This document shows positions 1,401 to 4,164 of a stretch of DNA of 14,763 bases, one piece after another (position 1 is the first letter of the stretch; each line of letters begins with the position of its first letter). The translations under genes and the position numbers were made by a program. The notes below the pieces were generated by a model. That model was not told the origin of the DNA, made no database searches, and saw only the letters and a list, made by a program, of their open reading frames with translations. Source of the DNA: Desulfuromonadaceae bacterium (GTDB lineage: Bacteria; Desulfobacterota; Desulfuromonadia; Desulfuromonadales; Geopsychrobacteraceae); NCBI GenBank assembly GCA_030639985.1, contig DAOWKG010000199.1, positions 1 through 14,763 of the forward strand. Reading direction: 5' to 3'.

Positions 1401-1571
1401 ATGACCATGCAAGAGCTTCTTCGGTTCGGACTGTTCGTTCTAGCTCTCTACGATCTTCACCGAAAACTGATCAAAAATCACGACTGCAACTGCAGCGGCA
1501 TTCCTCTTCTTCGAGAACAGCCTCAAGACATGCGATATCGGTTACCTGTACCGTGCCACGCTGGTAGGTAA
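1401..1571 (+). CDS. Possible 56-aa small protein, antisense to the regulator 3' end
   Basis: Reading frame starting MTMQELLRFGLFVLALYDL, with a short hydrophobic stretch, a basic patch (HRKLIKNH) and CNC at about residues 29-31. It ends at TAA 1569-1571. The last 101 bases overlap the end of the Crp/Fnr-family gene on the other strand. No good ribosome binding site is seen, and a hairpin precedes it, so it may be chance. An internal ATG at 1407 is an alternative start. Listed because the first 70 bases fall outside any other gene. Confidence 0.2.
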   Translation: MTMQELLRFGLFVLALYDLHRKLIKNHDCNCSGIPLLREQPQDMRYRLPVPCHAGR

Positions 1572-2190
1572 TCCCTTCCCACTTGACCAGCCGCTGTAGG
1601 CTCCGAGATAACGTTTCCCGAGCAATCCCCAGCTCCTGAGCCGTCAAACTGATCGGCCTGAGATCAACGCTGCAGATAAATTTACGCAAACAGTGTCCCT
1701 GTTTAATTTTGTGCAATAGATAAGCGGCAACTTTTACATCCGCTTTACAACAGCGGGAAAGGGTTCGCATTTCACGTTCCTGCTCAATCTGCGATGCCAT
1801 CTGCTTGAGAATATTGCTATAGAAATTTTGATTATCTTCCATAAATTGACGAAAAACAGCATGGTCCCAATACATCAATTCGGTTCTACCTGCGTTGACC
1901 ATCTGGCTATTACAAGAGTGGTTGGAGGCGACTGCAGCAAGGCAAAAAAATTCACCAACACCGAATCTCTGGATCAAATGCTCTTGTCCATCGGGCGCCA
2001 CACGCAGCATACGCATCTCACCGGATAAAACAAAGAAGAGCCGTTTTGACATCTCTTCCATACCAATACGTCCAAACTGCCCCTTAAGTAGGCGAATACG
2101 TCCGGCGCTGGCAACTTGCTCAATCAAGTCATTGCCGACCCCATCCAGCAAAGGTGCAGCACTCAGCATACCTAAAACCTGATCCGACAT
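1471..2190 (-). CDS. Crp/Fnr-family transcriptional regulator
   Basis: 239 aa. Residues about 20-115 form the cyclic-nucleotide-binding-type beta roll (RLFFVLSGEMRMLRVAPDG, then GVGEFFCLAAV). A dimerisation helix follows (about 117-145), then a winged helix-turn-helix at 181-202 (SLTAQELGIARETLSRSLQ). The recognition helix R191-E192-T193-x-S195-R196 resembles E. coli CRP (RETVGR), which reads TGTGA half-sites. The pocket lacks the cAMP phosphate-binding pattern of CRP, and the effector is unknown; several Cys (83, 93, 147, 148, 167, 173) could allow redox, metal or haem sensing, but this is speculation. The tail is Cys-rich (ECRCSCS). The ATG is preceded by AGGTGG at good spacing, and the upstream DUF3793 frame, read through its TGA, ends one base before this ATG, so the two genes look translationally coupled. 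Confidence 0.85.
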   Translation of the reverse strand: MSDQVLGMLSAAPLLDGVGNDLIEQVASAGRIRLLKGQFGRIGMEEMSKRLFFVLSGEMRMLRVAPDGQEHLIQRFGVGEFFCLAAVASNHSCNSQMVNAGRTELMYWDHAVFRQFMEDNQNFYSNILKQMASQIEQEREMRTLSRCCKADVKVAAYLLHKIKQGHCLRKFICSVDLRPISLTAQELGIARETLSRSLQRLVKWEGITYQRGTVQVTDIACLEAVLEEEECRCSCSRDF

Positions 2191-2191
2191 A

Positions 2192-2314
2192 TCAAGCCAC
2201 CTGTAATAATTGCAAAGGGATAGATCCTGTCGCCAATTTTGTAATCATCTCCTGCCTCTTACTTCGATATAAATTACTCAACCTCAAGCTGCGTTGTGGT
2301 GGTCCATAAATCCG
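2192..2314 (-). other. In-frame continuation of the DUF3793 gene beyond its TGA
   Basis: After TGA 2317-2315 the same frame stays open for 40 codons (RIYGPPQRSLRLSNLY... ending GSIPLQLLQVA) to a second TGA at 2194-2192. From memory, DUF3793 proteins end with a W-[KR]-[VI]-Y-G motif followed by a basic stretch and a GxSI tail; the continuation starts exactly at the residue after the Trp of that motif. The first TGA is therefore best read as a TGG-to-TGA change or a recoded/read-through codon. The continuation also holds the regulator's ribosome binding site. Confidence 0.65.
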
Positions 2315-2887
2315 TCACATTCCACGTCCCGGAGACGGTTCAGTTTTTTGTTCCATAAAACCTTTTACATCTTTGACTGGGTACCCCAGAAACATACCAA
2401 CTTCATGTGGAATTCCACACCGGAACGATTCCTGTAAATGCTGCAATGTCTTTTCTAAAGTGAGGGGCTGGGGATAGTCTTGTCGGGCAAGAAAGGTTTG
2501 CATGGTTCGCCCACGTAATCTTCTCTCCAGCAAGTCCGAACGGTAAATCAGCAGCAGGGCACTATTTTTTTCGGTTCGCATCGGCCTAACAGAGAGCGGT
2601 AAGTCTTTTATAAGTTCTGAACCAAATTTCTGCCACAAACGGTATATACGTCGGCCACAGGGAAGCCTCTGATTAGGGATACGAATCATATTTGCCGGCT
2701 TTGCCCCAGACAAAACCTCTGCAGCAGCAACGGCTAGAAAGGCCGCCAGACATTCCTTAGGAGCAGGAAATAACCCTGCGACATCAATCCAGGTCAATTC
2801 TCTGCCAACTTGCGGTGCTGAACAACTTGAGTCTGATTTCTGCAATATATTTTCCGTGCAGCAACCCTGTTTCCTGCGACATATCAT
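2315..2887 (-). CDS. DUF3793 family protein, ended early by an in-frame TGA
   Basis: 190 aa as terminated. Diagnostic DUF3793 features: an N-terminal ECLAAFLAVAAAEVLSGAKPAN segment in the position of the family's L-A-G-x-K-P-A-N motif, a central ALLLIYRSDLLERRLRG stretch, and FRCGIPHEVGMFLGYPVKDV followed by KGFM (family PHEIGLFLGYP-x-x-DV-x-GF). The function of the family is not established; members are often coded near iron-related and flavodoxin genes. I prefer ATG 2887 over TTG 2896: AGGAG (2901-2897) abuts the TTG but is nine bases from the ATG. A Fur-like box overlaps the likely promoter. The frame stops at TGA 2317-2315 where the conserved Trp is expected and continues to 2192, so it may be a pseudogene, a leaky read-through gene, or functional though shortened. 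Confidence 0.75.
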   Translation of the reverse strand: MICRRKQGCCTENILQKSDSSCSAPQVGRELTWIDVAGLFPAPKECLAAFLAVAAAEVLSGAKPANMIRIPNQRLPCGRRIYRLWQKFGSELIKDLPLSVRPMRTEKNSALLLIYRSDLLERRLRGRTMQTFLARQDYPQPLTLEKTLQHLQESFRCGIPHEVGMFLGYPVKDVKGFMEQKTEPSPGRGM

Positions 2888-2900
2888 TTCACACAACTCC

Positions 2901-2924
2901 TAATGGTTTTGATTACCATTATCA
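2901..2924 (-). promoter_or_regulatory. Fur-box-like operator with overlapping -10
   Basis: On the minus strand TGATAATGGTAATCA (2924-2910) matches the Fur 7-1-7 consensus TGATAATnATTATCA at 12 of the 14 specified positions. It overlaps a perfect inverted repeat TAATGGT/ACCATTA (2901-2907 and 2915-2921). GATAAT (2923-2918) inside it would serve as a -10, placing the start near 2911 and a short leader before ATG 2887. Binding there would block transcription, as expected for iron-responsive repression of the DUF3793-regulator unit. Confidence 0.55.
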
Positions 2925-2981
2925 TCCACGTGGGCAAAAAAAACAGCATAGCTCTGCTTGAACCATTGGGCTATCCTTCTT

Positions 2982-3019
2982 AAAAAGCTAGAAATTGAAA
3001 ATGGATTTCAATTTCTAGC
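2982..3019 (-). terminator. 14-bp perfect AT-rich inverted repeat followed by T-run (minus strand)
   Basis: 2987-3000 (GCTAGAAATTGAAA) is repeated inverted at 3006-3019 with a five-base loop. On the minus strand five T residues follow (complement of 2982-2986). It lies after a stronger terminator of the same strand and before the DUF3793 promoter, so it probably serves as a second stop that insulates the two units. Confidence 0.5.
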
Positions 3020-3040
3020 AAAACCGCCCAAGCATGTCAA

Positions 3041-3074
3041 TAAAAAATCGGGGAAGCAATTTCCGCTCCCCCGA
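3041..3074 (-). terminator. Intrinsic terminator of the porin gene
   Basis: On the minus strand a GC-rich nine-bp stem (3073-3065 with 3057-3049, one G-U pair) with a seven-base loop is followed by ATTTTTTA. It starts 23 bases after the porin stop codon. Confidence 0.85.
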
Positions 3075-3096
3075 CAACCCTTTCTTACAAGTTTTT

Positions 3097-4164
3097 TTAG
3101 AACTCCAATGCCAACTGGCAAGTCACAGTATCTGCCGACTCCCCCGTTCCACCATCCGAAAGGCCATAATCCTCGTCATGAATGTACTCAAAAGCAATAC
3201 CAACACCTTCAGTAATATCAAAACCTAATGCTGCACCAATTCGTGTTTCTGGAAGACCAAACATAACTGCATCAGCTGAACCTTGGTAGGTAACTGCAAC
3301 TGAAGCACCGTGCCCGGAAATCTCAAAACGGTACCCAAATTCGAGCCCCCATGCCACCGGCTCAGAATCTTCTGCCACCAGATAATCGTTATCCAATGCG
3401 GTAAGATATTCACCCCTCAGAGTAAAATCGGCAATATTCACAATCGCACTGACAGTCGCACCGGCGGTATAATCATCCAGGAGCGCAACTCCAGCATCAT
3501 CAAGATAGGCAGAAAACCCGCCGGAAGACGTCAGATTACTAATCCAACCAGCAGACAAGTCAACGCTCATCTCGTCAGCCTCAAAGGCATATCCCGCCAT
3601 CAGCCCGTAAGCATCAATCATGTCATCAGTAGCGTCATCGTTAATTGCACTATTGAAGCTATATGCAGCACCGTAAAAGCCGCCGCCAGCAACATTGACC
3701 GTCACTGCCCCCTCTCGCGTTTCGCCTAACTCAAGGGTTAACGGATCGCTGACCATGCCGGTCTCATAAACACCAAACGGCACATAGAGTTTACCAGCGC
3801 TTACGGCAACACCATAGTCATCAACATTACCGAGAGTGACACCACCCTCATCAAGAAAAACCCCTTCGCCACCATCCTCTTCCCACTTCATCAGAGCAAA
3901 CCCTGAAAAATAATCGGTCAAATCTACATCAATACCCAGCTCCAGTGTAGTTAAGTCGACATCACTCTCTTTAACATCATCGTAGTCGATGCTATAGCCC
4001 ATCTCTGCTTCAATAGCCCCAGATATCTGCACCTGCTGGACAATGCCTTGACTCAAAACATCCTCCAATGCAGTAACACGACTAGCCAATGCTCCATCTG
4101 TTGCAAACACAAATGCGGGAGACAACATCAACCCACAGACAATCAAACTTACCAGCAACTTCAT
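3097..4164 (-). CDS. LbtU-family (siderophore) outer-membrane porin
   Basis: 355 aa. Signal peptide residues 1-21 (MKLLVSLIVCGLMLSPAFVFA), then a short heptad-like segment (ALASRVTALEDVLSQGI) and a beta-barrel rich in alternating strands, ending in Phe as outer-membrane proteins do. The start of the barrel (QISGAIEAEMGYSIDYDD), DLTTLELGIDVDLTDYFSG, the KWEEDGGEGVFLDEGGVTLG region and SAGKLYVPFGVYETGMVSDP followed by LTLELGETRE match, from memory, the LbtU family, named after the Legionella legiobactin receptor that works without TonB. Very acidic composition. The gene is monocistronic: its own terminator follows and a CRP-type operator with class II spacing precedes it. The divergent MFS gene could be the inner-membrane partner. 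Family call fairly good; the ligand is unknown. Confidence 0.7.
   Translation of the reverse strand: MKLLVSLIVCGLMLSPAFVFATDGALASRVTALEDVLSQGIVQQVQISGAIEAEMGYSIDYDDVKESDVDLTTLELGIDVDLTDYFSGFALMKWEEDGGEGVFLDEGGVTLGNVDDYGVAVSAGKLYVPFGVYETGMVSDPLTLELGETREGAVTVNVAGGGFYGAAYSFNSAINDDATDDMIDAYGLMAGYAFEADEMSVDLSAGWISNLTSSGGFSAYLDDAGVALLDDYTAGATVSAIVNIADFTLRGEYLTALDNDYLVAEDSEPVAWGLEFGYRFEISGHGASVAVTYQGSADAVMFGLPETRIGAALGFDITEGVGIAFEYIHDEDYGLSDGGTGESADTVTCQLALEF

Follow-up and report, generated by a model that had tools for sequence, protein, structure and literature searches.

The window (the whole 14,763-nucleotide stretch of DNA that was analysed) contains a DUF3793 gene in which an in-frame TGA stands in place of an invariant tryptophan codon. 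We consider it highly likely (probability of about 0.9) that an ordinary DUF3793 gene carries here a nonsense change of one base at Trp191 and that this change is very recent, being either a mutation at the level of the strain or an error in the consensus. The features involved are as follows.

1471 to 2190, minus strand: Crp/Fnr-family regulator of 239 amino acids, which starts one base past the DUF3793 frame's own stop and ends in TGA.
2192 to 2314, minus strand: in-frame continuation of 40 codons with its own stop TGA, comprising the W-[RK]-[IV]-Y-G tail and predicted C-terminal helices (from the profile match and the structural model).
2315 to 2317, minus strand: TGA codon replacing the invariant Trp codon, residue 191, with C as the next base (from the codon and protein comparison).
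2315 to 2887, minus strand: DUF3793 (PF12672) gene up to the in-frame TGA, encoding 190 residues and lacking the C-terminal 41.
3097 to 4164, minus strand: siderophore porin of the LbtU family, encoded upstream of DUF3793 (254.2 bits to NCBIfam NF033652, whose cut-off is 90).

The DUF3793 frame starts with an ATG at 2887, is interrupted by the TGA at 2317-2315, which is followed by C, and then continues for 40 sense codons, RIYGPPQRSLRLSNLY...LLQVA, to a second stop, the TGA at 2194-2192, one base ahead of the ATG of the regulator (2190). Read-through would give a protein of 231 residues and termination one of 190 (193 if translation begins at the TTG at 2896). Around the TGA the frame carries no second lesion. 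The initial annotation had described an in-frame TGA at a conserved Trp without a frameshift, and both its coordinates and its reading of the frame hold.

When the frame is cut at the TGA, it matches the PF12672 profile with 102.2 bits over positions 1-123 of 167, and when the TGA is read as Trp, the match rises to 130.7 bits and covers positions 1-162 of 167. Both versions pass the curated Pfam cut-off for the family (25.1 bits), but the full domain, including the W-x-x-Y-G part, is reached only with Trp; the 40-residue tail alone has no match in Pfam. The homology thus runs through the TGA, as an alignment with DUF3793 members, proposed in the initial annotation, had been meant to show or refute, and the match extends beyond residue 191 in all six genomes of the genus that have the gene, the source genome of the window included. 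The codon at the site was compared in 31 further distinct genes (28 from 27 genomes other than the window's own, plus 3 more, with duplicates excluded and with five remote DUF3793 matches from a plasmid search left out of the count), the family being present in 28 of the 60 genomes of the set when the window's own is counted. All 30 genes that reach the site have TGG there, so that no relative examined shares the TGA; the remaining gene, L028, stops at a contig edge, short of the site. At the protein level, among 120 sequences listed of 166 found, Trp occupies the site in all 119 that have a residue there, and the other sequence, P0057, is a fragment without a residue at this position. The public P0057 fragment ends in ...VSYTHLRAHET, presumably a translated adapter artefact. 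In an alignment of 80 sequences, which includes the read-through window protein, W191, G195 and S200 are invariant. Judged by these comparisons, the continuation after the TGA is genuine family homology and not a chance extension. The gene is carried by 5 of the 13 other genomes of the genus, several of these genomes being incomplete, and it looks dispensable.

The public protein P0001 bears on the age of the change. This protein of 217 residues is identical to the window frame from residue 15 on and has Trp at the position of the TGA, the sole other difference being Met for Leu15, the initiator, as expected from a TTG start. It is encoded on a contig of 5,526 bases (the window contig has 14,763) and represents a cluster of 3 members, the sequence compared being that of the representative. 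On this protein evidence, from which we infer a TGG codon, an intact DUF3793 allele very probably exists in a near-identical relative; P0001 could also stem from the same sample, assembled a second time. The Trp of P0001 is unlikely to result from translation with code 4 because the neighbouring Crp/Fnr regulator, which under that code would have 392 amino acids (a length within the range searched), occurs among public proteins only in the 239-residue form, identical to that of the window and present on two contigs, the longer of which has 20,181 bases. The length of the regulator thus makes a code-4 origin of P0001 unlikely but does not amount to proof, and the 5,526-base contig may be a separate one. 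A contig of that same length, 20,181 bases, encodes P0210, which differs by 3 residues from the LbtU-family porin of the window; P0210 and the identical regulator, taken as lying on one and the same contig, probably represent another strain in the public data. P0001 bears the source mark '-' that proteins of the window itself receive, but P0210 bears it too despite its 3 differences, so that the mark denotes near identity. With an otherwise identical protein that carries Trp at hand, the simple reading is that one base changed recently or that the assembly is in error. Provided that P0001 is that intact allele, the lack of any other residue change would make the lesion very recent, and given a recent lesion, conservation of the tail does not require read-through.

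The substitution pattern is a point against this reading, though one that a recent lesion would account for. Compared with L030 and L032, the dN/dS ratio is about 0.07-0.08 before the TGA and about 0.18-0.20 after it, and between L030 and L032, both of which are intact, it is 0.07 before the site and 0.12 after, with dS near saturation before the site and few sites after it (the comparisons with L031 are saturated). The codons after the TGA look selected, which would be expected if the lesion is recent and is compatible also with a tail that is in use. In the AlphaFold2 model of the read-through protein (mean pLDDT 87.5, pTM 0.81), the part that is lost contains helices at residues 198-219 (22 residues) and 224-229, and the 10-residue blocks over 191-230 have pLDDT values of 93-96. 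Given the loss of these predicted C-terminal helices, the truncated product probably misfolds or loses its function, and the model accordingly suggests a protein that is probably non-functional or unstable. A fold search with the DUF3793 model against the PDB gave no match at E <= 0.001 among 398, a sequence search for a solved relative gave none up to E = 1, and in the literature found, as far as its text was available, DUF3793 is mentioned only in a fungal splicing study.

We therefore envisage an ancestor with an intact DUF3793 gene, which a near-identical relative very probably retains, and a very recent change in the copy of the window, either by mutation at the strain level or through a consensus error in a fragmented metagenome assembly. 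If the base is real, ribosomes would stop at UGA191 and release a protein of 190 residues, 41 residues early and without its C-terminal helices, and we would then expect the truncated DUF3793 to have lost its function and any read-through to stay at basal leakage.

The error form of this explanation, one of the two that it comprises, holds that the gene in the cell has the Trp codon and that the consensus base is wrong or reflects a strain mixture, and we give it somewhat less than an even chance. The source MAG, 2.06 Mb in 345 contigs, makes such an error plausible, as do the near-identical protein P0001 with its Trp, the undamaged remainder of the frame and the 20,181-base contig, which suggests a second strain in the public data. 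Internal stops, however, are rare elsewhere in the genome, with one in 104 family matches, and a test of 183 stops, albeit a weak one, turned up no clearly broken gene. The rarity of internal stops slightly favours a true allele over poor assembly, which is weak ground where a single base in a fragmented MAG is concerned. The 183 stops come from the second version of a codon-statistics scan, in which 12 were flagged, 2 of them TGA; the first version covered only 36 stops from the G000 sample, a single one being flagged. Judged from the translations, 11 of the 12 flagged stops separate adjacent genes that share a frame, the next start codon following shortly, and the one that remains (L094:13831) is a TAG with a short continuation of 32 codons. 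The scan is weak because the DUF3793 TGA itself would escape it (upstream score 3.8, downstream -2.0).

Could the TGA instead be decoded? That it is read as Trp throughout the genome is the least probable of the possibilities considered, with a chance that is practically nil, and nothing was found in its favour beyond the DUF3793 codon itself. In a sample of about 255 kb of the genome (the window and 20 further stretches), 131 frames with a stop reach 250 codons or more, and 44 of these end in TGA. In the window, 6 of the 17 other frames end in TGA, among them the regulator, larE and mscS, as had been stated at the outset, and none of the 17 contains an internal one. RF2 is encoded by prfB (524.6 bits), which from its ATG has the frame AGG-TAT-CTT-TGA-C, which we take to be the classical RF2 frameshift site. 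The only tRNA with a UCA anticodon, in the loci of 24 tRNA matches plus that of tRNA-Sec, is tRNA-Sec. Across the whole genome, 104 matches to two families (66 response-regulator and 38 ABC) include none with an internal TGA and one with an internal TAG. The latter is the response-regulator match at G000:C182:1842-2183, possibly a broken gene or an edge effect. A second release-factor match that seemed to have a stop inside proved to be an edge effect, since the TGA precedes an open frame of 358 codons, that of prfA (560.5 bits). With TGA a common stop, the RF2 site kept and no internal TGA in the family matches, a genome-wide change of code was rejected, and dedicated Trp decoding is likewise not supported.

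Programmed or tolerated read-through, in which tRNA-Trp would usefully decode UGA-C so that both a short and a full-length protein are made, is improbable. UGA followed by C is a leaky stop context. In the window C directly follows the UGA and the tail is conserved, and given this leakiness, functional read-through keeps a small probability. Against it, the TGA occurs in none of the relatives (30 genes and the 119 proteins listed), no structure follows it, and the tRNA-Trp of the genus has a CCA anticodon and an anticodon stem of 5 bp in all 10 cases (from 11 secE loci). A tRNA-Trp with a 4-bp anticodon stem does read UGA in Escherichia coli, according to the available part of the source (PMC13092985). 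The accessible portion of a paper on termination makes no mention of the UGAC context. In the fragmented assembly from which the window comes, neither tRNA-Trp nor secE, its neighbour in the genus, was found; the anticodon arm of tRNA-Trp, searched for as a pattern, was hit at 9 places with one mismatch, and ARAGORN found no tRNA-Trp in the 7 of these 9 loci that were scanned, one of the 7 being tRNA-Sec. More doubtful still is the proposal that leaky decoding of UGA-C by tRNA-Trp keeps full-length DUF3793 at a low dose, the TGA allele being then a translational dimmer ahead of the Crp/Fnr gene and not a null. Were read-through true, this would be a natural leaky UGA that sets the dose of a protein in a bacterium for which UGA is a stop elsewhere.

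Recoding as selenocysteine is very improbable, even though the genome encodes the machinery for it, with selC (65.8 bits) and with selA (601.3 bits) adjoining selB (298 bits), of which the contig end leaves only the first part. None of the 119 proteins listed has Cys at the site, and all have Trp. A survey of bacterial selenoproteins, in the part of it that was available, discarded a candidate unless TGA/Cys pairs made up more than 50% of the homologues and searched for a SECIS afterwards (PMC1088965). Three stretches that start at the TGA show no folding advantage over shuffled sequences (z of +1.25, +1.40 and +0.61), where a positive z denotes a fold weaker than the shuffle mean and the test was run without a true SECIS as a positive control; the corresponding stretches of three relatives, begun six bases after the TGG, also fold worse than the shuffle mean (+1.08, +1.21 and +0.97). 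These z-scores bear out the earlier impression that there is no strong stem 3' of the TGA, and an Rfam scan of the window yielded no match at the gathering threshold. The search for selABC and a SECIS suggested in the initial annotation thus came out divided, with selA, selC and the first part of selB present and a SECIS-like fold not found. Selenocysteine was rejected on the residue pairing, with no Cys, and on the lack of a SECIS-like fold, despite the Sec machinery. Among the options first raised, the nonsense mutation, which had been listed first, is therefore the one that stands, whereas selenocysteine fails for want of a SECIS-like fold and of a Cys homologue among those examined, and decoding by tRNA-Trp is unsupported.

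The gene neighbourhood offers several further observations. The ATG of the regulator is preceded by an AGGTGG-like site of its own, and since this site is kept, the regulator may still be translated, possibly with weaker coupling. The order porin, DUF3793, Crp/Fnr regulator (window 1471-4164) is kept in all five other loci of the genus that have DUF3793 (L014, L017, L019, L021 and L027), suggesting that the three genes may form one metal-related unit. A Fur-box-like 19-mer, GATAATGGTAATCAAAACC, lies at 2905-2923 on the minus strand, with 15-16 of 19 identities to the consensus, a score that none of 200 shuffles reaches. In five of the six loci of the genus (the window, L014, L017, L019 and L027), such a site precedes the aligned start of DUF3793 by 36-38 bases, the best-scoring site in L021 lying elsewhere; of the 32 loci tested, many outside the genus are at the shuffle level. 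Together with the adjoining LbtU-family porin, the predicted Fur-box-like site hints at iron control of DUF3793. Between the porin and DUF3793 there is also a near-perfect palindrome, CTAGAAATTGAAATCCATTTTCAATTTCTAG, at 2988-3018 on the minus strand, matching at 13 of 15 arm positions, which may be an operator or else a terminator-like element. At 8-1339, a protein of 103 amino acids with weak similarity to NikL, a nickel/cobalt ECF subunit (44 bits, cut-off 100), is encoded beside a DUF4198 protein (185.4 bits).

A TGA at an invariant Trp resembles recoding, and the intact, near-identical public protein warns otherwise and calls for caution. Comparison with known systems points the same way. 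The window shares with bacterial selenoproteins an in-frame TGA and a genome with selA, selB and selC, but the homologous residue is Trp, never Cys in the sequences examined, and no stem-loop follows the codon. With read-through of UGA by a near-cognate tRNA-Trp it shares the UGA at a Trp position and the C that comes next, but it differs from the 4-bp-stem case, as far as the available part of that report goes (PMC13092985), in that the tRNA-Trp of the genus has a 5-bp stem and a CCA anticodon and UGA is a widely used stop. The features of DUF3793 (PF12672), namely a near whole-domain match when read through, the invariant Trp and W-[RK]-[IV]-Y-G, are shared once the TGA is read as Trp, the difference being that the copy in the window is interrupted. 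With bacterial nonsense alleles and pseudogenes, finally, no difference was observed, and a real base and a consensus error both fit: a single stop stands at a conserved codon that is sense in relatives (TGG in 30 of 30), the rest of the frame is intact, and intact genes in relatives are accompanied by an intact, near-identical protein of the same species, P0001, at the protein level.
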